Source of the DNA: an uncultured Verrucomicrobiales bacterium
Lineage (GTDB): Bacteria; Verrucomicrobiota; Verrucomicrobiia; Verrucomicrobiales; Akkermansiaceae
DNA length: 64,000 nucleotides
Reading direction: 5' to 3'
Assembly: GCA_937951675.1 (NCBI GenBank)
Contig: CALFBI010000001.1
Coordinates: 62,001-126,000, forward strand
This document shows positions 17,993 to 27,742 of the stretch, piece after piece. The notes under the pieces were generated by a model. That model was not told the origin of the DNA, made no database searches, and saw only the letters and a program-made list of their open reading frames with translations. The number at the start of each line of letters is the position of its first letter. Position 1 is the first letter of the stretch. Position numbers and translations under genes: made by a program.

Positions 17993-18400
17993 TTAAGGTT
18001 TCTCTTGAAAGCCCTCTAATTGACTTCTCCATTTTTCAGGAAGAGGGAGAGGGCCTTTTCCCTCTCCTACTAAAACAGTTCTTATCTCGCCGAGAGCTAT
18101 TTCGGACTCATTTGAAATCACCTTAAACCCCCAAGTCAGAGAGCTCGTCCCCAATCGCTTCAAGACTAGCTTCACTTGATAGGGATCATGATAGTAAAGA
18201 GGCTTGAGGTATCGGCACTCAACATGCCCCCGAGGCCAGCCCAAAGCTTCCTCTCCTCCAAAGACATTAATCTCTAAAGAGTTCAATAATACATGCTCCG
18301 CATTCTCAACATACCGAAGAATAGACGTGAAATGAACCCGAGTAGAGGCGTCGGTCTCAGAAAATAAAACCTGCTTTTCTTCTGAGACCCATTCGTTCAT
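17993..18400 (-). CDS. Acyl-CoA thioesterase, 4HBT (hot-dog) family
   Basis: 135 residues, a single hot-dog domain. The segment FSETDASTRVHFTSILRYVENAEH matches the 4-hydroxybenzoyl-CoA/YbgC thioesterase motif, with the catalytic Asp at about residue 16 and the helix His near residue 23. The next strands (YLKPLYYHDPYQVKLVLKRL) also fit. The substrate is probably an acyl-CoA or acyl-ACP. It follows fabF by 12 bp on the same strand, so a role in fatty-acid turnover or membrane homeostasis is a reasonable inference. Confidence 0.82.
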   Translation of the reverse strand: MNEWVSEEKQVLFSETDASTRVHFTSILRYVENAEHVLLNSLEINVFGGEEALGWPRGHVECRYLKPLYYHDPYQVKLVLKRLGTSSLTWGFKVISNESEIALGEIRTVLVGEGKGPLPLPEKWRSQLEGFQEKP

Positions 18401-18412
18401 CTGAAACTTGTC

Positions 18413-19657
18413 TTAAAGGCTTCGAACTAGAAGAGAAGCATTATGCCCGCCGAAACCAAATGAGTTACTCAAGGCGCTCTTAATCGGAAGTTCACGAGCC
18501 GTTTGCGGAACGTAATCGAGGTCACACTCTGGATCTTGGTCTTCTAAGTTGATGGTCGGAGGGATCACTCCTTCCTGAAGGGCCATTAAACAAGCTGCGA
18601 TTTCAACCCCCCCAGCAGCGCCAAGAAGGTGCCCGGTCATTGATTTAGTAGAACTCACGACTAAGCCATTTTTAGCGTGATCCCCAAAAGTGCGTTTGAC
18701 CGCTTTCGTCTCACAAATATCTCCGAGAGGAGTAGACGTTCCGTGAGCATTGACGTAGTCGACCTCTTCGGGATTCATCCCAGCATGCTTAAGAGCCATA
18801 TCCATGCAGCGGCTTGCGCCTTCTCCTTCTGGATGAGGTGAGGTGAGGTGGTAAGCATCTGCGCTAAGTCCGTATCCGGCAAGTTCGGCGTAAATGGTCG
18901 CGCCGCGTTTTTTAGCGTGCTCGTATTCCTCAAGAATCACGACTCCAGCTCCTTCGCCCATCACAAATCCATCCCGTCCCGTGTCGAAAGGACGCGAGGC
19001 ACGAGTTGGTTCCTCATTCCGGGTGCTAAGCGCCTTCATGTTACTAAAGCCCGCTAAGCCCATTGGAAGAATGGTTCCTTCTGCTCCACCTGCAACAAAA
19101 GCTTCTGCGTCACCGAATTTGATCATGCGCCAAGCTTCTCCAATACTGTGATTGGAAGTCGCACAAGCCGTGACAATTGACATGTTAGGCCCGCCAAATC
19201 CGTAATCGATTGAAATGATTCCGCTCGCGATGTTTGAGATCATCATCGGGATAACGAAAGGAGAAACTTTAGAGGGCCCTCGCTTAATAAGCTTTGCGTG
19301 CTCACGCTCGAGAGTTCCTAAACCTCCAATTCCGGACCCAACCATCACCCCTACCCGAGAGTGATCGATCTCGGGCTGGTTGATTCCTGAATCTTCAATG
19401 GCCATGGCTGAAGCCGCCATCGCAAGGTTCGTATACCGGTCAGTCCGACGAGCATCCTTCGGGTTCTTAAAATATGGCGCCGGATCAAAATCGCGAACTT
19501 CACCTCCAATTTTTACTTGATAGTCCGTGGTATCGAGAGACTGAATCTCTCCAATCCCGCTACGTCCGGCTTTTAAACCTTCCCAGGTCGTTTTTAAATC
19601 ATTCCCTAGTGGGCTGACTACTCCAATGCCGGTGATTACTACGCGTCTCTCTGTCAT
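18413..19657 (-). CDS. fabF: 3-oxoacyl-[ACP] synthase II
   Basis: FabF condenses malonyl-ACP with acyl-ACP to lengthen fatty acids. The catalytic triad is complete: Cys in VTACATSNHSI, His in NAHGTSTPLGD and His in KSMTGHLLGAAG. The frame is open from 19717, but the first 20 residues are not family-like, so I place the start at the ATG at 19655-19657 (MTERRVVITGIGVVSPLG), which gives 414 residues, the normal size. The C-terminus SNSFGFGGHNASLLV is also typical. It is the penultimate gene of the leftward run that begins with the zinc-ribbon/HEAT and ExbB/ExbD genes. Confidence 0.97.
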   Translation of the reverse strand: MTERRVVITGIGVVSPLGNDLKTTWEGLKAGRSGIGEIQSLDTTDYQVKIGGEVRDFDPAPYFKNPKDARRTDRYTNLAMAASAMAIEDSGINQPEIDHSRVGVMVGSGIGGLGTLEREHAKLIKRGPSKVSPFVIPMMISNIASGIISIDYGFGGPNMSIVTACATSNHSIGEAWRMIKFGDAEAFVAGGAEGTILPMGLAGFSNMKALSTRNEEPTRASRPFDTGRDGFVMGEGAGVVILEEYEHAKKRGATIYAELAGYGLSADAYHLTSPHPEGEGASRCMDMALKHAGMNPEEVDYVNAHGTSTPLGDICETKAVKRTFGDHAKNGLVVSSTKSMTGHLLGAAGGVEIAACLMALQEGVIPPTINLEDQDPECDLDYVPQTARELPIKSALSNSFGFGGHNASLLVRSL

Positions 19658-19719: not shown

Positions 19720-19962
19720 CTAACCAAGAGCTCGGCGGTCACGCCATCGGTTGGTCGCGCCACACTGAGGGCACTGCGTCAACCGCCCCTGATCAGGCTC
19801 TTTCTGATAGCGTTCATCACAAAGACGGCACCGAACCTCTTGCTTTTTCCACTTTAGCCCCCGCCGCCACCTCCTCAAAACCGAGCCCGCCATGATTAAT
19901 GAAAACCCTAAGCATCCGAAAACAAAGGCCGCTAAAATCCAATTTGTGATTGATAAATTCAT
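19720..19962 (-). CDS. Small zinc-ribbon membrane protein (unknown function)
   Basis: 80 residues. One N-terminal membrane segment (about 8-27) is followed by a basic stretch (RRWRRGLKWKKQ), then a putative zinc ribbon with the pairs CRLC and CPQC. Its start overlaps the stop of the upstream gene by 4 bp (19959-19962), which supports that it is a real, translationally coupled gene. I do not recognise a named family. It lies between the ExbB/ExbD genes and fabF. Confidence 0.7.
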   Translation of the reverse strand: MNLSITNWILAAFVFGCLGFSLIMAGSVLRRWRRGLKWKKQEVRCRLCDERYQKEPDQGRLTQCPQCGATNRWRDRRALG

Positions 19963-20723
19963 GACCTCTGGATTTTAAGTTCCGCCCAAAATGATGATTG
20001 CAGAGGCTCCCTAGATTCCGGCAAATCGCGTAAAAGAAATTGTTGCTTTCTCACCCAGTGATTCCATTCCTGAAGCTCGCTTTGCTTTAGGGGAGAGCGT
20101 GTTGCAAAAAGAAAGAGAACTTCGCCTAGAGAATTACACCGCACGGTATACACGAGAGGAGAATCAGGAATCACCAGGTGAGATGGAACTTCTGATTCAC
20201 GCCATTTCCTCGCAGACTCCGAAGCGATGTGAATCATGACAGGCCGATCAACAGTCACTTGCTCAGAATTCAAGCGGAGAGAAAGCTTCGGCAAAACGGA
20301 ACTCCATCGGTAAGGGGTCATCAGCGGCACCTCCTGCTCTGGGGCAAAGGACTCCATTGGAATAGGCCGAAAAGCGAGGTCGGAAAGATTTAAAAGAGGC
20401 CGGTCCAAAAAATAATGAAAATCATGTTTTTCCGACCAAAGAGGCGCTTCTTGAGAGAGCGAAACTAACCCTAAATAAGGTGAATGCTTTTCCGCTTTTT
20501 GCGATAACGCCTGATAATGAAGGTCATCCTTCGCAATAAAAATAAGCTCTCCAGGAATATCAAGAGCTCCTCTCTTTTGACTTACCTCACCTTGAGCCCT
20601 CTGGACTCTTATCAAAACAAGAAACGCACTCACGATCAGGAGAGTCAGCATGATTGATAATGACATCCTCCCGATGCAAATTTCAGCTGATTTCCAAACA
20701 AAACTAAGCTTACGAGAAGACAT
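19959..20723 (-). CDS. Single-pass envelope protein after exbD; possible TonB-like partner
   Basis: 254 residues with one membrane segment near the N-terminus (about 22-40) and a periplasmic remainder. The last 80 residues contain VYTVRCNSLGEVLFLF, then an SELQEW-NHW helix and a final AELKI strand. This strand-strand-helix-strand order resembles the C-terminal domain of TonB/TolA-type proteins, but identity is too low to be sure by eye. Position supports the idea: it directly follows exbB and exbD on the same strand, where tonB is often found. It lacks a long Pro-rich linker. The label is an inference. Confidence 0.55.
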   Translation of the reverse strand: MSSRKLSFVWKSAEICIGRMSLSIMLTLLIVSAFLVLIRVQRAQGEVSQKRGALDIPGELIFIAKDDLHYQALSQKAEKHSPYLGLVSLSQEAPLWSEKHDFHYFLDRPLLNLSDLAFRPIPMESFAPEQEVPLMTPYRWSSVLPKLSLRLNSEQVTVDRPVMIHIASESARKWRESEVPSHLVIPDSPLVYTVRCNSLGEVLFLFATRSPLKQSELQEWNHWVRKQQFLLRDLPESREPLQSSFWAELKIQRS

Positions 20724-20742
20724 CTATCTTTAATGGAAGAGG

Positions 20743-21141
20743 TTATCGTGAGGAACCTAGTAACACACACCGTAACCCAAGGGAACGAACTTCATCAATG
20801 ATTTGGCGCTCTAAAGACACTGCAATATTTTGGTCAAATTTGAGCAAAATCATATCCACATTTTCGCTCTCTTTTTGCTTTGCTAACCGAGACGCCAAAG
20901 ACTGAAGCGCTATTCTTTCAGTTCCTAAATAAAGAGAGTTTTTAGAAATCACAGTAAGGGTTTTGGAAGCACTATAATCTTCGATCTCCCAGTTTGCGTC
21001 AGGAAGAGAAACATCCACCCCGGTATATTTCACAAACCCAAGCCCTAGATAAAGAAACGTAAAAACAAGCACAAAGAGATCGAACGCCGCTAAGAGATGC
21101 AGCACCCCAACCCGCTCTGGCACCGTTAACTCTAATTTCAT
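20743..21141 (-). CDS. ExbD/TolR-like biopolymer transport protein
   Basis: 132 residues. One N-terminal membrane segment carries an Asp at its start (LLAAFDLFVLVFTFLYLGLG), which matches the proton-carrying Asp of ExbD/TolR. A periplasmic domain follows (LTVISKNSLYLGTERIA is like the ExbD pattern of strand then the helix LASRLAKQK). The family's usual PMID-type motif is not kept, so this is a divergent member. The start overlaps the end of the ExbB-like gene by 4 bp (ATGA), which fixes the pairing. Confidence 0.75.
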   Translation of the reverse strand: MKLELTVPERVGVLHLLAAFDLFVLVFTFLYLGLGFVKYTGVDVSLPDANWEIEDYSASKTLTVISKNSLYLGTERIALQSLASRLAKQKESENVDMILLKFDQNIAVSLERQIIDEVRSLGLRCVLLGSSR

Positions 21142-21791
21142 GACTTTTCGATTCCCTCTCTAAAGGACAGAACTTGGCGCTGCTCTTTGGAGTCTGCGAT
21201 CATATGAGTCATTTCGATCCCCACGAGCTCAATCCGGTGCAGAAGACGCTTCGCCTTACCGACCATCCAAAGGTAAAAGAGGTAACTTGCACTCGATATC
21301 GCCAGGCCTATCGCCGTCGTAATAAGAGCTTCAAAAATGCCCTTAGAAAATAACAAGGTCGAGAATGTATTCCCTTGGTCTTTTAAGTCTGAAAACACAT
21401 CTAATAGTCCTAAGACCGTGCCAAGCATTCCCAGCAAAGGAGCTAATAAAGCAATCGCTAACAAGGGGCGCAGGTGCCGCTCGATTCTAGGGATCTCCAT
21501 TCTTGCGGCTTCTTTTGCCACTTCCGCGAGCTCACTTCTATTAAGATAATGACGGCTTGTGATGGCAGATGCGACTCGAGAATACGGTCCTGGGGCACGC
21601 TTCGACTCATGAACTGCTTCTGCATAGGCTTTTTGCCGGATATGATTAGAAATCCCTAAAAGGAAATGAGCCGTGTTCGCTTTGGCTCCTTGGAAAAACA
21701 GCAAACGCTCAAGCACATAAACAAGTGCTAGAAAAGCCAGTATCCCTTGCAAAAGAATAATGGGGCCGCCTTGACTGATCAGCTCTGACAT
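21138..21791 (-). CDS. MotA/TolQ/ExbB proton channel family protein
   Basis: 217 residues. There are three membrane segments: IILLQGILAFLALVYVLERLLFF at the N-terminus, LLAIALLAPLLGMLGTVLGLLDVF in the middle, and GIFEALITTAIGLAISSASYLFYLWMV. The last two carry the family hallmark (GMLGTVLG, then FEALITTAIGLAIS). Together with ExbD this forms the proton-driven motor that powers outer-membrane transport (TonB) or envelope maintenance (Tol). No receptor or Pal/TolB gene is adjacent. It is preceded by the HEAT-like zinc-ribbon gene, 56 bp upstream. Confidence 0.9.
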   Translation of the reverse strand: MSELISQGGPIILLQGILAFLALVYVLERLLFFQGAKANTAHFLLGISNHIRQKAYAEAVHESKRAPGPYSRVASAITSRHYLNRSELAEVAKEAARMEIPRIERHLRPLLAIALLAPLLGMLGTVLGLLDVFSDLKDQGNTFSTLLFSKGIFEALITTAIGLAISSASYLFYLWMVGKAKRLLHRIELVGIEMTHMIADSKEQRQVLSFREGIEKS

Positions 21792-21847
21792 TTTTCGACA
21801 CTAAAGAAGCTAAGCGCTTTTGGAAAGCCCCAGATCGAGTATTTCTC

Positions 21848-23449
21848 TTAATGCTGAGATAAGGTTAAAACATCAATCGCTTCTTGAATCAATCGTGATG
21901 AATCTGAATCAACCGAAGAAACTAATGCCCTCAGAGCAGGAACTGCCTTTTCTCTTGTTCCGATTCGTTTCAAAAGTTGAATTGCCGAATGCGCCACCTC
22001 TTTATTTGAATGTTGAAGTTGTTGAATCACTCTTCCTTCCATCGCTGGGCCGACTTGTTCAATGATGCTGCCCCATTTCAAATAGTCCTGAATCCAAAGC
22101 TCCTCCAAGGTGTCTAAAAGCTGAGGAGAGTTATGCGTCGCCATGCTTATCACGAAACTTTTTGGGAAGGCGCGTTTTTCCGATCTTAATTCTGAGGCGA
22201 TTTGCTCAATCAAGTTTGAAGTCCCGTCACCTTCTTGAGTCCAGATTTGCAAGGCCCCTGAAATCAAATCGAATCGCTGGGGATTCGTCTCCTTCTTCGC
22301 CAACTCAGCAAGCTTACGACTGATCTCTACTCGGTATCTTAATGGCTCCGCAGCTGAAAGGCGCTCAATGGCTCCATCCATACGGCGCGAATCAATATGC
22401 TGAAGCTCTTTATAATTCAAACTATAGAAATTAGGATGAGTAGGATCTGTTAGCTTCTTCATGATTTGAGGATTAATACTCCCAAGCCCATCGCCCTTCA
22501 CGTTTACCTTTACCATCCGCAAATCATCATATTGCTTCACCACTTCTCCGAACCTTGTCGCCTTTTGAGCAAGCTCGTCTAACTCGATCTTACTTCCCTC
22601 CAAAATGAAAATCCCTCCTCTTCTTCGAGGATAAAACATCGGCTCTTCTTCCAACTCGAAGGTCTTATGAAGATAATCTTGGACCTCAAACTTATAACGT
22701 TCCTCCATATTCACCGCCCAAATGACCGCCACCATTAATCGCTCGTCTTTGCCGGGAACCACATACTTCGCCATCGTTCGAGCGATAGGATCATAGCCTA
22801 CTTCGGCTTGGATTTCTTCAAGGGTTGGCTCTTTTATTTCTCCCTCTAATTCTACGACCTCAAGCTCTTTTAGATTCTTATTCACTCCCGAAGGCGTTTT
22901 ATGCACCGGTCGAAGCACGGCTAACACCACTAGCCCCAATGCGGCAAGAACCCCCACTATAGTGGTCAACTTCCCAGCCCTCTTCCCTGCAAAAATAAGC
23001 AATGCCGCACCAAGCCCGGCAATAAAAACAGTCAGCAACAAACGTTTATCTAAAGGGATGTCTTGAAAAACACCTTGAGGTTCCGTTCCAACAAACAAAT
23101 AAATTCCGTAACCAAGTAAAATAAGACTCCCAAGAAAAATAGCCACCACGCGCCGCGGGCGGAGAGGAGACGTATCAAACTGATTTTGTGAAGGTTGATC
23201 CGCATAAGCTGCTGGTTGAAAAGGAAGCTTCTCTGCAGCCTTTGGAATCACTCCTTCCCCACGTCCTTTCTCCGGTAATTTGATCCCTTTTTTCTCACCA
23301 GGATAGTGCTTAACCATTTTCTCTACAAACACCTCTTGCTCCACTTGAAATTGATGCTCGCATGATCCGCACTCAACAGTTCGCCCTTTAAGCTCTTCAC
23401 TTGCATTAAACTGACTCCTACACTCGGGGCATTTGATTCGGATACTCAT
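21848..23449 (-). CDS. Zinc-ribbon, three-TM, HEAT-like repeat protein (unknown)
   Basis: 533 residues. The N-terminal 40 residues form a zinc ribbon (IKCPECRSQFNA ... ECGSCEHQF), like the MJ0042/FmdB type. Three membrane segments follow (about 110-130, 140-160 and 165-185). The remaining 340 residues are soluble and helical; the last 120 (LAELAKKE, EVAHSAIQLLKRIGTREKAVPALRALV) look like HEAT/armadillo repeats. I know of no named family. It is the first gene of the leftward exbB-exbD-fabF run, so it may be an accessory to the motor, but this is positional inference only. Confidence 0.75.
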   Translation of the reverse strand: MSIRIKCPECRSQFNASEELKGRTVECGSCEHQFQVEQEVFVEKMVKHYPGEKKGIKLPEKGRGEGVIPKAAEKLPFQPAAYADQPSQNQFDTSPLRPRRVVAIFLGSLILLGYGIYLFVGTEPQGVFQDIPLDKRLLLTVFIAGLGAALLIFAGKRAGKLTTIVGVLAALGLVVLAVLRPVHKTPSGVNKNLKELEVVELEGEIKEPTLEEIQAEVGYDPIARTMAKYVVPGKDERLMVAVIWAVNMEERYKFEVQDYLHKTFELEEEPMFYPRRRGGIFILEGSKIELDELAQKATRFGEVVKQYDDLRMVKVNVKGDGLGSINPQIMKKLTDPTHPNFYSLNYKELQHIDSRRMDGAIERLSAAEPLRYRVEISRKLAELAKKETNPQRFDLISGALQIWTQEGDGTSNLIEQIASELRSEKRAFPKSFVISMATHNSPQLLDTLEELWIQDYLKWGSIIEQVGPAMEGRVIQQLQHSNKEVAHSAIQLLKRIGTREKAVPALRALVSSVDSDSSRLIQEAIDVLTLSQH

Positions 23450-23612
23450 AAATTAAGTTCTTAATTTAGTATAACTGAGGACTTCGTGCTGAGTCAGCAT
23501 AAATCGACTAGAAAAATGGCAACTATTTAGCTTCATTCTTTCCCCTCTCTTTTCTCCATCATCATGAAAAGCTTCACTTGAAAGAGAGCCCTTTCCTGCT
23601 TAGCTCTCCAAT

Positions 23613-24317
23613 ATGCATCCAGATATCCCCGCGTTATTGATTCTGCAGGACCGAGATCAAAAAATCATTTCCATTAAAAAAGACCTGAGCCGAATCCCTC
23701 TTGAAAAAGAACTCGCTGAGACCCGCCTCTTTAAAAACCAACAAGCGGTTAAAGAAGCGAAAGAAACACTTCAGCAACAGGAGCTCACCGTGAAAAGCGT
23801 CGAGCTAGATCGACAAACCCGTAAAAACACGATCGCCAAACTGCAAACCCAACAGTTTGAAACCCGTAAAAATGAGGAGTTCCAAGCCTTTGCAGCTGAA
23901 ATCAAAAAATATGAGGGGGAAATAGATGAGCTCGAAACCCGCGAACTGGAATCCATGGAGGCCGCGGATCAATATAGAAGTAAACTTCGCGCGGCGGAAG
24001 ACGCGCTCTCTAAAATCCAAACCGGCGTGGCCCAAGAAATCTCCGTTCTAGACAAAAGATTTACCGAGCTATCTGCCCAACTCACCGAAATCGAGGCAGA
24101 CCGAGCGACCAAAGCCTCTAGCATCGATGAGATCTTACTCATGACCTATGATCGGTTGATTAAAGCTAAAAACGGGTTAGCGGTCGCCTCCGTTAATGAG
24201 AAAAAACAGTGTGGAGGGTGCCACGTCACCACCACTCCTTCCGCTTATGTGAACACCATCGCGGGCAAAGAATTGGTGCAATGTGAAAACTGCGGAACAA
24301 TTCTCTACCCTGGTTGA
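23613..24317 (+). CDS. Coiled-coil C4-type zinc-ribbon protein (COG1579-like)
   Basis: 234 residues. Residues 1-175 are a long charged coiled coil (LLILQDRDQKIISIKKDL at the start is typical of the family, as is FETRKNEEFQAFAAEIKKYE). The C-terminal 40 residues hold a zinc ribbon with CGGCH and CENCG followed by TILYPG. This is the widespread bacterial family related to chlamydial CT398, which has been reported to bind sigma-54 and flagellar components in Chlamydia; its role elsewhere is unknown. It stands alone upstream of rplS. Confidence 0.85.
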   Translation: MHPDIPALLILQDRDQKIISIKKDLSRIPLEKELAETRLFKNQQAVKEAKETLQQQELTVKSVELDRQTRKNTIAKLQTQQFETRKNEEFQAFAAEIKKYEGEIDELETRELESMEAADQYRSKLRAAEDALSKIQTGVAQEISVLDKRFTELSAQLTEIEADRATKASSIDEILLMTYDRLIKAKNGLAVASVNEKKQCGGCHVTTTPSAYVNTIAGKELVQCENCGTILYPG

Positions 24318-24469
24318 TTTTCGCTCGAAAACACCTTTTTTTACTGCCAGAGTTCATAAATCATACGGATTTACTAAAAATCGTTTGCATTTCATCTTCG
24401 CTTCAGGTAGCTAAATCGCCCCGCAAGTGACGCGGGAACACTTTTCATTCCAATCACCTCACAAACACG

Positions 24470-24820
24470 ATGGACATCATTTCAAAAATCGAAACTGAAC
24501 AACTTAAAAGCGAAGTAACCGACTTCCATGTTGGCGACACGATCAAAGTTCACACCAAAGTTCGCGAAGGTGACAAAGAACGTATCCAGATCTTCTCTGG
24601 AATTGTGATCGCTAAACAAGGATCAGGCCTTAACGAAGCATTCACCGTTCGTAAAATTTCTTATGGAGAAGGTGTTGAGCGTGTTTTCGCTGTTCACACC
24701 CCACGCATCGATAAAATCGAAATCCTTTCTCAAGGTAAAGTTCGCCGTGCGAAACTTCATTACCTCCGTGATCGTGTCGGTAAACGCGCGATCCAAGTGA
24801 AATCGAAAGACCGCAAGTAA
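24470..24820 (+). CDS. rplS: Large ribosomal subunit protein bL19
   Basis: 116 residues, normal length. The sequence shows the L19 core: [32 protein letters not shown] at about 20-50, the [26 protein letters not shown] strands and the basic C-terminus [14 protein letters not shown]19 sits at the 30S-50S interface. The usual partners rpsP, rimM and trmD are not next to it. A 152 bp leader precedes it, and a strong terminator follows 25 bp after the stop. Confidence 0.98.
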
Positions 24821-24845: not shown

Positions 24846-24883
24846 AAAAAAGCCTGGCTCGTAGATGAGCCAGGCTTTTTTTT
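24846..24883 (+). terminator. Rho-independent terminator after rplS
   Basis: A perfect inverted repeat, AGCCTGGCTC/GAGCCAGGCT with a 6-nt loop, flanked by six A on the left and eight T on the right. It is the clearest intrinsic terminator in the window and could work in both directions. Confidence 0.93.
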
Positions 24884-24920
24884 GACTTTTGAATCTCCTT
24901 CCGGCATCTTGATCCACGAA

Positions 24921-25808
24921 TTGAAAGTCCCAGGTCCCATCGTTACTCTCCTCTGCCTCACCATTATGGGAACGGCCTGGTATTTTGGCGCCAAAAAGCA
25001 TTCCTTTTTAGAATTCGACGAATCTTTCAACGCTAGCATCCCTCATATGGATTTTGGGACCCCTATTTCTACCGAGCCTCTTTCTGAAAATGAAACGATC
25101 GAAGGAGTATTCTCCCCAAAAGCTCTCGTCTTCAGTCTCAATAAAGTGGGCCTCACGACCGAGGTTCTCCAGCAGGCGCCAGGCTTAAGCCTTTTCCATA
25201 AAATTGCGCAAGAATCACCAGAATCCCTTCCCCAACTTGCTCTTTACTTAGAGCGCCAAGGAGAGCTTGAGCTTTCTCGACTCGTTTACGAACGAATGAT
25301 CGACAGCTCTGAACATCGGGAACTTTCTCTCGTCGAGGTCCGTAAGCATCTCCTCCGACTCTCGCAAACAACTTCGATGTGGGTCAGTGACCCGGCAGAA
25401 ACGACAGCTTTGACCTTGCACCTCAGCAGTTCTTCCGCATTAAAATCTCAGCTGGTGCAATACCTCCAACAACTCACCCCTTATATCTATCAATGCAGTG
25501 GAGGACTCGTGAAACTGGAAGCCGAACTCACACTCAAAGAAAATTCCAATTCAGGGAACCTTGTTTCATTTTGGGTGGAAGGAACCGGACCCAAAGGGAA
25601 AAAAAGTCAAACCCTGACCAAAATGATCCCGTCCTCTGACGCCTCTGAAGCCTTTTTCGCCTCTTTCTACGAACTCGTATCCGCACATCTTTCTCTCACT
25701 CCACAACTTTTAAACCCTCCCCCCCTCACGACAGCCCTCTCCGCGAAAGAACAGCTCTCTACAGACATTTCCCGCTGGATGTGGATGATTTTCGCACAAT
25801 CACTCTGA
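24921..25808 (+). CDS. Membrane-anchored helical-repeat protein (unknown)
   Basis: About 295 residues with a signal anchor (VTLLCLTIMGTAWYFGA) followed by a soluble, helical region. The part LPQLALYLERQGELELSRLVYERMI looks like a TPR-type helical pair. The open frame begins inside the rplS terminator (TTG at 24882), which is an unlikely start. I chose the TTG at 24921, which gives a basic residue before the membrane segment; an ATG at 24966 would cut into that segment. No family recognised. It precedes the YdjY-domain gene on the same strand. Confidence 0.65.
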   Translation: MKVPGPIVTLLCLTIMGTAWYFGAKKHSFLEFDESFNASIPHMDFGTPISTEPLSENETIEGVFSPKALVFSLNKVGLTTEVLQQAPGLSLFHKIAQESPESLPQLALYLERQGELELSRLVYERMIDSSEHRELSLVEVRKHLLRLSQTTSMWVSDPAETTALTLHLSSSSALKSQLVQYLQQLTPYIYQCSGGLVKLEAELTLKENSNSGNLVSFWVEGTGPKGKKSQTLTKMIPSSDASEAFFASFYELVSAHLSLTPQLLNPPPLTTALSAKEQLSTDISRWMWMIFAQSL

Positions 25809-25862
25809 TTTTTCTAAGAAACAGCTCTCTCCAAACGTCACGAAGTGTCGTGGCCCTTTAAA

Positions 25863-26579
25863 ATGACCTCTAAGATGAACCCTATTCGAACTACTCTTTT
25901 AATCCTTTCCTTCTCTCTCACCACGACACTTTTTTCAGCGGAGCCCACCGAAGCTCCTGAAGTAAAGCGTATCAGTGAGACTATTTACCAACTGGGAGAC
26001 ATTCATTTCGACCAAACCACACGCGAAATCTGGTTCCCGGCAGAAATTAACCTCAACGACCAAACCCTCCTCGAATTCGCCCTCGTTCACGAAAAGGGGA
26101 AAACGCATGAGTCCCTTCTCTCGACCAAGACTTCCCCCACTCAGCTCAATATTGTTTTCAAGCTTCTGAGCTATGGCGAATCAGAAGAACTCTTCGAAAT
26201 CGTGGATAAAGGAGAACTGACCGGGAAATTCCCAGAAGTGAGCGAAGAACAAAAAGCGGCTTCGCGTTTCAATATTTCAGTTGAATGGGAAAAAGACAAA
26301 AAAAAGCAGTCTGCTTCGCTTAATGATTGGATCATGAACTTGACGACTAAAGAACCCATGTCTGTCGAAGCCTGGATTAATCACGGGTCTTACATGATCG
26401 AAAAAAACTTTCATGCTGAAACAGAAGGAAGTTTTTTCGCCATTTACAAAGAAAGAGGTGCTCTCATGTCTTACTCAGGCGCTGGCAATGACAACGATGA
26501 AAACTGGACCGCGATCCCAGACCGCCTCCCTCCCGTCGGCACGCCTCTCACCCTTCGAATCAAGCCCATTAAACCATAA
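25863..26579 (+). CDS. Exported YdjY-domain protein
   Basis: About 238 residues. A signal peptide (LLILSFSLTTTLFSA|EP) is followed by the segment IWFPAEINLNDQTLLEFALV, then GKTHESLLSTKTSPTQLNIVFKLLSYG. These match the YdjY domain known from Planctomycetes, Verrucomicrobia and some Proteobacteria, whose function is unknown. The frame is also open from a GTG at 25845, but ATG at 25863 or 25875 gives a normal signal peptide. The TAA stop overlaps the ATG of the next gene (TAATG), so the pair is translationally coupled. Confidence 0.8.
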   Translation: MTSKMNPIRTTLLILSFSLTTTLFSAEPTEAPEVKRISETIYQLGDIHFDQTTREIWFPAEINLNDQTLLEFALVHEKGKTHESLLSTKTSPTQLNIVFKLLSYGESEELFEIVDKGELTGKFPEVSEEQKAASRFNISVEWEKDKKKQSASLNDWIMNLTTKEPMSVEAWINHGSYMIEKNFHAETEGSFFAIYKERGALMSYSGAGNDNDENWTAIPDRLPPVGTPLTLRIKPIKP

Positions 26580-27742
26580 TGACCACCTTTTCTAAATCTT
26601 TCCTCTGTGTAGGACTGATCATTACCACCTCCCTCAGCCTGGCGACCGCAAACCAAGCGGACCTCTCTCTTAAACTCGAAATCCTGCGAGCGATTCAAAA
26701 AGGGAACCAATACCTTGCATCCCAGCAGAACGAAGAAGGCTTTTGGGTTGAAGCCCGCACCCCGGCTCTTTCTGCATTAGCATTAACATCGATCGCTCGT
26801 GATCCTAATAGAGCCCCAGAAACACCTCTCCCCGCTGAGATTGAAAAAGGGTATCAATGGCTTCTCAGCAACCAGAAAGACGATGGAGGAATCTATGGCA
26901 AAGGGCTTGCTACTTACAGCACCTCTACCGCCATTATGGCACTTCTCGCCAGGGAAAACAAAGCTGACGTCCCTCAAATTCTTAAAGGACGAGCCTTTCT
27001 CGTCAATCAACAAACCGATTGGGGAAACCGCGGCGAAACGGATAATAAATATGATGGTGGCATCGGGTATGGAGGCACTTACGCCCACTCCGATTTGTCA
27101 AATACCCACCTTGCGATCGAAGCGATTAAGCAATCACAACAGCTCGCCAAAGATTCCGAATTCGGGAAGCAACCTGAACTGAACTGGGAAGCCGCTCTGA
27201 AATTTGTCAGTCGGTCTCAAAACCTCAAAAAAACAAACGACCAAGAGTGGGCTTCTGATGATGAAGAGAATAAAGGTGGATTCGTTTACTTCCCCGGCAA
27301 CTCCAAAGCAGGAGAGCAAGACCTCCCCAATGGTCAAAAGGCGCTTCGCTCGTATGGATCCATGTCTTATGCGGGACTTCTCTCCCTCATTTACGCCGAC
27401 CTTGGAGAAGATGACCCTCGCGTGAATTCTGTGGTTACTTGGTTAGGGAAAAATTTCAGCCTCGAGGAAAACCCAGGAATGGGGCAACAAGGCCTCTATT
27501 ACTATTATCAAGCCATGGCCAAAGCGCTCACGGCAGCTGGCATTGAAAACCTCCCCCGCCCGGACGGAAGCCAACTCAACTGGCGACACGCGCTCGGAAC
27601 TAAACTTCTTTCTTCACAACGAGAAGACGGTTCTTGGGTTAACGAAAACTCTCGTTGGTGGGAAAATGATCCCGTGCTAGTGACCTCTTACGTCGTCATG
27701 TCTTTGGAGCATCTTTATGAGTCTTTCCCCGAAGACAAATGA
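26579..27742 (+). CDS. Exported prenyltransferase/squalene-cyclase-repeat protein
   Basis: 387 residues. A signal peptide (ending near LATA|NQ) is followed by alpha/alpha-toroid repeats of the prenyltransferase/squalene oxidase type: GNQYLASQQNEEGFWVEA, GYQWLLSNQKDDGGIYG and LLSSQREDGSWVNENSRWW. It lacks the DxDD motif of squalene-hopene cyclase, so it is unlikely to be a cyclase; the fold is probably used for binding. It is coupled to the YdjY gene, suggesting that the two exported proteins act together. Confidence 0.82.
   Translation: MTTFSKSFLCVGLIITTSLSLATANQADLSLKLEILRAIQKGNQYLASQQNEEGFWVEARTPALSALALTSIARDPNRAPETPLPAEIEKGYQWLLSNQKDDGGIYGKGLATYSTSTAIMALLARENKADVPQILKGRAFLVNQQTDWGNRGETDNKYDGGIGYGGTYAHSDLSNTHLAIEAIKQSQQLAKDSEFGKQPELNWEAALKFVSRSQNLKKTNDQEWASDDEENKGGFVYFPGNSKAGEQDLPNGQKALRSYGSMSYAGLLSLIYADLGEDDPRVNSVVTWLGKNFSLEENPGMGQQGLYYYYQAMAKALTAAGIENLPRPDGSQLNWRHALGTKLLSSQREDGSWVNENSRWWENDPVLVTSYVVMSLEHLYESFPEDK

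Follow-up and report, generated by a model that had tools for sequence, protein, structure and literature searches.

A conserved exbB-exbD gene unit with a TonB/TolA-like arm protein and a zinc-ribbon membrane protein in Verrucomicrobiota

Results

We analyzed 64,000 nucleotides of the genome of an uncultured Verrucomicrobiales bacterium of the Akkermansiaceae (GenBank assembly GCA_937951675.1, contig CALFBI010000001.1, positions 62,001 to 126,000), hereafter the window, which carries a gene cluster for a motor of the ExbB/ExbD type. Five open reading frames (ORFs) follow one another on the minus strand from 23449 to 19720. Four of them encode an ExbB/TolQ-like motor subunit of 217 aa (21138..21791; Pfam PF01618 MotA_ExbB, 80.5 bits), an ExbD/TolR-like subunit of 132 aa (20743..21141; PF02472 ExbD, 36.3 bits, above the cut-off), a TonB/TolA-like single-pass protein of 254 aa that we call arm (19959..20723; assigned by its position between exbD and the last gene, its predicted fold, and its profile), and ZnR80, an 80-aa protein (19720..19962) with one transmembrane (TM) helix followed by a four-cysteine zinc ribbon of the form CxxC-x15-CxxC. 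The fifth encodes a zinc-ribbon/HEAT protein of 533 aa (21848..23449) and is not part of the unit (see below). The layout is the one described in an earlier note on this DNA, with five codirectional genes and tight packing of the last four: exbB and exbD overlap by 4 nt, as do the arm and ZnR80 genes, and 19 nt separate exbD from the arm gene. The gap between the HEAT gene and exbB is 56 nt. As that note had also claimed, a Pfam scan of the window ORFs found no TolB, Pal, or receptor gene beside the cluster. Promoter and terminator scans gave results no better than those of shuffled sequences.

The same arrangement recurs in relatives. An ortholog of the window ExbB is present in nearly all of 58 related genomes, and behind these orthologs come, in the same order, exbD, a gene for a single-TM protein of ~240-290 aa, and a gene for a four-Cys membrane protein. 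Named relatives of this ExbB include Roseibacillus, Luteolibacter, Haloferula, Rubritalea, and other Akkermansiaceae/Verrucomicrobiales. Among 80 named loci, which overlap with the anonymous genomes so that the counts are not independent, exbB could be read in 79 loci, exbD in 75, arm in 67, and ZnR80 in 64. Genes that were not read lie mostly at contig ends or were lost to the ORF filter, and the order exbB, exbD, arm, ZnR80 is identical in 64 loci. No relative of the 254-aa protein turned up in sequence searches of the contigs of its own genome or of the 58 related genomes; its homologs were reached through ExbB and gene position.

Profile searches for the unit covered Verrucomicrobiota, where the ZnR80 profile matches 194 of 241 genomes. 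We picked 40 ZnR80 loci across families of the phylum, and in 26 of them, representing ~19 further families, the ZnR80 gene is preceded on its own strand by exbB and exbD. At most of these 26 loci a gene of ~220-290 aa separates exbD from the zinc-ribbon gene. The arm or TonB profile matches 11 of these intervening genes with an E value of 2e-3 or better, the others being assigned by position and TM helix only. The recurrence of this order in dozens of genomes shows that the arrangement is not due to chance, and exbB, exbD, arm, and ZnR80 form a real gene unit. Synteny in relatives had been named in the earlier note as a check on its proposal, and the four genes do stay together there.

The four cysteines of ZnR80 are invariant (alignment A4), the C-C-x-C-C pattern being found in 64 of 64 loci, and by the positive-inside rule the ribbon would face the cytoplasm. 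At the remaining 14 of the 40 sampled loci the zinc-ribbon protein has no motor genes beside it (L293, L294, L297-L300, L302-L307, L321, and L330, in families f7, f9, f13, f14, f16, f17, and f36). Since ZnR80-like proteins can stand without exbB, exbD, and arm, the protein may have a role beyond the machine.

The predicted fold of the C-terminal domain of arm (residues 161-254; 19962..20243, minus strand) is that of TonB/TolA, with a strand-strand-helix-strand core. In a profile-profile comparison, its last 95 residues match TonB C-terminal domains from the same taxonomic order with 94.5% probability (E value of 7.9e-8), whereas the controls (ExbD, the zinc ribbon, the N-terminal part of arm, and column-shuffled TonB) reach at most 0.45%. 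In an AlphaFold2 model of the window protein, a large part of the C-terminal core exceeds a per-residue confidence (pLDDT) of 90, and VIA-align gives TonB or TolA in all of rows 1 to 21 (Z 3.8-6.2; best unrelated structure, Z 3.6). For the arm of Brevifollis gellanilyticus, whose ExbD has an Asn in place of the critical Asp discussed below, rows 1 to 20 are TonB/TolA (Z 4.6-7.7; unrelated structures at most 3.8); these structural Z values are modest, yet in agreement with the sequence evidence. Foldseek alone gave no match under an E value of 0.001, its best being the C-terminal domain of HasB at 0.16, and TonB/TolA domains are common among its top rows. Arm sequence profiles reach TonB structures in the PDB weakly (E values of 0.33 and 1.2). 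The conclusion on the fold thus draws on VIA-align, the profiles, and the two models together.

Scanned singly, 10 of the 59 arm homologs in alignment A3 match TIGR01352 tonB_Cterm (best E value, 1.5e-5), and matches to TonB_C and TonB_2 are few and weak (TonB_C best, 0.0011). The window protein stays below the TonB cut-offs of Pfam and NCBIfam, with no match of its own, and the matches in its relatives are weak. Near the C terminus, an invariant Gly lies in a D-x-x-G-x-V turn resembling the C-terminal hairpin of TonB (A3). Taken together, the alignments and models indicate that the C-terminal domain of arm is homologous to that of TonB/TolA. Hence, the suggestion in the earlier note that the 254-aa protein is a candidate divergent TonB is supported by predicted fold and profile homology, and the fold is not an unrelated one.

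A cytoplasmic FxW motif of arm (F8 and W10; 20694..20702, minus strand), invariant in the 59 members of A3, stands immediately before the modeled TM helix (residues 17-37; 20613..20675, minus strand). A TM histidine is found in 22 of 68 family members and the Ser-3X-His arrangement of the motor-docking SHLS motif in 9, and the window protein has neither. The linker between the helix and the C-terminal domain, ~120 residues in the window with a family median of 114 and ~8-12% Pro, is by its length long enough to span the periplasm.

The window ExbB has tolQ as its best NCBIfam match (54.6 bits), and its nearest solved relatives are TolQ (E value of 2e-6) and then ExbB (1e-4). It belongs to the family by these matches and keeps the pore threonines equivalent to T148 and T181 of Escherichia coli, at Thr125 in TM2 and residue 159 in TM3 (alignment A1). 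Thr125 is invariant among orthologs and the TM3 site is Thr or Ser in nearly all of them; the window protein lacks a TM3 Pro and a TM1 Trp found in most relatives. Asp21 of the window ExbD (codon 21079..21081, minus strand), aligned with Asp25 of E. coli ExbD, is also kept. On these residues, ExbB and ExbD probably conduct protons in the window organism.

The picture is mixed in relatives. The TM Asp of ExbD, TolR, and MotB has been described as absolutely required (PMC12905483), and among ExbD variants D25N is given as inactive (PMC11658791). Among 106 readable ExbD orthologs of the cluster (one further ortholog was unreadable), we found 77 Asp, 26 Asn, 1 Gly, 1 Thr, and 1 Glu, such that Asp is replaced by Asn, Gly, or Thr in 28, whereas nonorthologous ExbD proteins from the same collection of loci have Asp in 53 of 53. 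A more distant set of 25 proteins, with one more unread, has 17 Asp, 5 Asn, 2 Ser, and 1 Cys, the alignment register being clear for Asn and less so for Ser and Cys. The Asp/non-Asp label requires eight changes, at least six of them on well-supported branches, on a quick ExbB+ExbD tree made with the Asp column removed and read without inferring the direction of change. Cultured strains with Asn include Luteolibacter marinus, Haloferula sp. BvORR071, and B. gellanilyticus. In Asn lineages, as in Asp lineages, the ratio of nonsynonymous to synonymous substitution rates (dN/dS) is well below 1 in all four genes, at ~0.1-0.2 for exbD with Asn and up to ~0.4 for the arm gene, which indicates purifying selection. 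The earlier note had suggested a proton-driven machine: Asp21 and the pore threonines agree with this in the window, and the repeated loss of Asp in relatives makes it uncertain.

Compensation of the lost charge was considered and rejected, as no acidic replacement was seen in the pore helices of ExbB and ExbD. A joint loss of the arm TM His and the ExbD Asp was also considered, and there is no simple link between the two among the 68 arm proteins. Two loci are unusual. In a reduced genome of 0.9 Mb (G091, locus L301), exbB, exbD, and the zinc-ribbon gene are kept next to an arm frame of 70 aa, with a Ser at the Asp site of ExbD, which may reflect decay or a minimal form. Most members of genus g3 have an arm of ~270 aa and Asp in ExbD, but in one of them, genome G002, arm measures only 142 aa (L103, 8934-9362) and the ExbD residue is Asn.

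Discussion

Textbooks present Ton and Tol motors as the means by which the outer membrane is powered. We think it likely that the four genes encode a Ton/Tol-type trans-envelope complex, specific to Verrucomicrobiota as far as tested, with a cytoplasmic zinc-ribbon subunit. Its formation, topology, use of protons, partner, and role are what we infer from genes, alignments, and models. The TolQ-like ExbB, expected to be a pentamer, would enclose an ExbD dimer in the inner membrane, and arm could dock at the rim of this motor through its TM helix and FxW segment. The arm linker, of ~115-120 residues, would cross the periplasm, and the TonB/TolA-fold domain could grip a putative outer-membrane partner by beta-strand addition. 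ZnR80 would share the inner membrane, its ribbon facing the cytoplasm, and would serve in assembly or regulation. With ExbD Asp21 and the pore threonines of ExbB retained, the window organism probably uses proton flow to pull the arm; Asn lineages may keep the same complex as a link that is unpowered or powered in another way.

Several observations weigh against this reading. The 254-aa protein alone matches nothing in Pfam, NCBIfam, or PHROGs, and it lacks the TM His that docks TonB and TolA to their motors. No gene for Pal or a receptor is adjacent to the cluster, and a TolB profile search found no match in the genome, whose assembly is 97% complete (2.05 Mb, 28 contigs), so that neither known partner is evident. 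Finally, relatives that have lost the Asp speak against proton use as the conserved core of the function. The earlier note had suggested an uncharacterized machine, and our literature search, with many subscription papers outside its reach, found no description of the cluster or of an ExbD lacking Asp.

Elsewhere the same genome encodes a canonical TonB as an orphan gene (PF03544, 89 bits), a set beside def that reads TonB/TolA-like-exbB-exbD, a separate exbB-exbD-exbD set, and three TonB-dependent receptors with Plug domains, none within the cluster. It also has a Pal-like lipoprotein and OmpA-domain proteins outside the cluster. The separate canonical TonB, the two further exbB-exbD sets, and the three receptors mark the cluster as an additional Ton/Tol-type system. 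The set next to def lies on contig 10 (L001), where a K/E-rich TonB/TolA-like protein of 361 aa (137-1222) with only a marginal TonB_C match is followed by exbB, exbD, and def, the gene for peptide deformylase.

Could the cluster be a dedicated second Ton system, in which a diverged TonB, comparable to HasB or FusB, energizes particular TonB-dependent receptors whose genes lie elsewhere? The arm C-terminal domain matches FusB, HasB, and TonB as well as TolA, receptors are present in the genome, and tonB is often encoded at a distance from receptor genes (PMC12204202). Still, we regard this as rather unlikely, since no receptor gene was recognized beside the cluster in the window, the unit is phylum-wide, and by current models an Asn in ExbD would abolish energized uptake (PMC12905483, PMC11658791). 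For the trans-envelope complex that we prefer, we favor a Tol-like role in envelope maintenance over the uptake of a single nutrient, because the unit is phylum-wide, stands apart from the canonical TonB, and has no receptor gene. The proximity of ExbB to TolQ and the YbgC-type gene that follows fabF (below cut-off) are in line with such a role.

The repeated loss of Asp leaves two readings: coupling is not what is essential and conserved in the complex, or a paralogous ExbD supplies the residue. In the first case, which we advance tentatively, the conserved function would be independent of proton translocation by ExbD, and several lineages would have a non-energized or otherwise energized tether with a zinc-ribbon subunit. 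If true, this would overturn the rule that the Asp of ExbD, TolR, and MotB is indispensable. In the second case, ExbB would work with an Asp-bearing paralog or a mixed ExbD dimer and the system would be proton-driven everywhere. The genomes searched have 2-13 ExbD genes each, and the other ExbD proteins sampled all keep Asp; but the exbD of the cluster stays beside exbB and under purifying selection with its Asn, and the pore helices show no compensating acidic residue, which makes such a rescue rather unlikely in our opinion. That Asn lineages are decaying or artifactual versions (pseudogenes or assembly errors) is hardly credible: many loci come from metagenome-assembled genomes and arm genes evolve fast, but Asn is found in cultured strains and in whole clades, with intact frames and low dN/dS in all four genes. 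Since current motor mechanisms rest on this Asp, a relative that is under selection and has repeatedly dropped it is a natural experiment on the ExbB/ExbD scaffold without proton flow. Little is known about the biology of the envelope of Verrucomicrobiota, and the cluster also points to one of its missing components.

The cluster leads into fabF, as the earlier note had seen (18413..19657, minus strand, with its ATG at 19657; TIGR03150, 646 bits). This gene is directly downstream in 48 of 79 named loci, usually so in Akkermansiaceae and nearby groups, and it is followed by a gene for a YbgC/4HBT-type thioesterase (17993-18400; thio_ybgC E value of 1.1e-7, below cut-off) that is kept in many Akkermansiaceae. 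One could imagine that the four genes are mere neighbors, held in place by the synteny of fabF or other housekeeping genes, an explanation with very little left to it, given that their ORFs overlap and that in Chthoniobacterales-type and other families they are still together where fabF is not next. We conclude that fabF is a conserved downstream neighbor and probably not part of the machine.

The zinc-ribbon/HEAT protein, which the earlier note had listed as a partner, was rejected as a subunit. It has an MJ0042-type zinc ribbon (E value of 9.5e-6, above cut-off) and a HEAT_2 match just below cut-off (2.4e-5). Its gene is near exbB in none of the 80 named loci and beside it in the window only; its orthologs lie on other contigs or far from the cluster exbB. 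About 20 relatives carry it in a divergent pair with a CdsZ-like zinc-ribbon gene, after which rplS often comes next; the window has this arrangement too, at 23613-24820. The HEAT gene, the divergent CdsZ-like gene (23613-24317), and rplS thus make up a conserved Akkermansiaceae neighborhood of their own (21848-24820). Three unassigned genes come after rplS (24882-27742): one encodes a prenyltransferase/squalene-cyclase-like repeat protein (PF13243, 33 bits), and the products of the other two have no clear Pfam family.

Relation to known systems

An antiphage defense system of the ZorAB type was rejected, as there was no PADLOC match. With Ton systems, the unit shares exbB-exbD and a single-pass arm with a TonB/TolA-fold C-terminal domain behind a disordered, moderately Pro-rich linker, as well as the ExbB pore threonines. 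It differs in that the C-terminal domain falls below TonB_C thresholds, the YP box that precedes this domain in TonB is not conserved, and the arm TM histidine is missing in the window and in most Akkermansiaceae. It also has the extra ZnR80 subunit and an ExbD Asp that varies among orthologs, and it lacks an adjacent receptor, the canonical TonB being a separate gene of the same genome. With Tol-Pal, it shares an ExbB closest to TolQ, the Q-R-A gene order, an arm C-terminal domain that also matches TolA, and a nearby gene for a YbgC-type thioesterase. YbgC is a companion of tol-pal elsewhere. Unlike Tol-Pal, the cluster has no tolB or pal and the genome no TolB match, and fabF and ZnR80 are found in the neighborhood of the unit. 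Another comparison is with the von Willebrand A (vWA) force transducers of Planctomycetes-Verrucomicrobia-Chlamydiae bacteria, uncharacterized motor-linked proteins encoded beside tolQ/tolR-like genes in Verrucomicrobia, whose C-terminal domain has the von Willebrand A fold and for which a conserved TM His or Asp has been stressed (PMC12204202). In the arm family, by contrast, the TM His/Asp is not conserved across members and the C-terminal domain is TonB/TolA-like.

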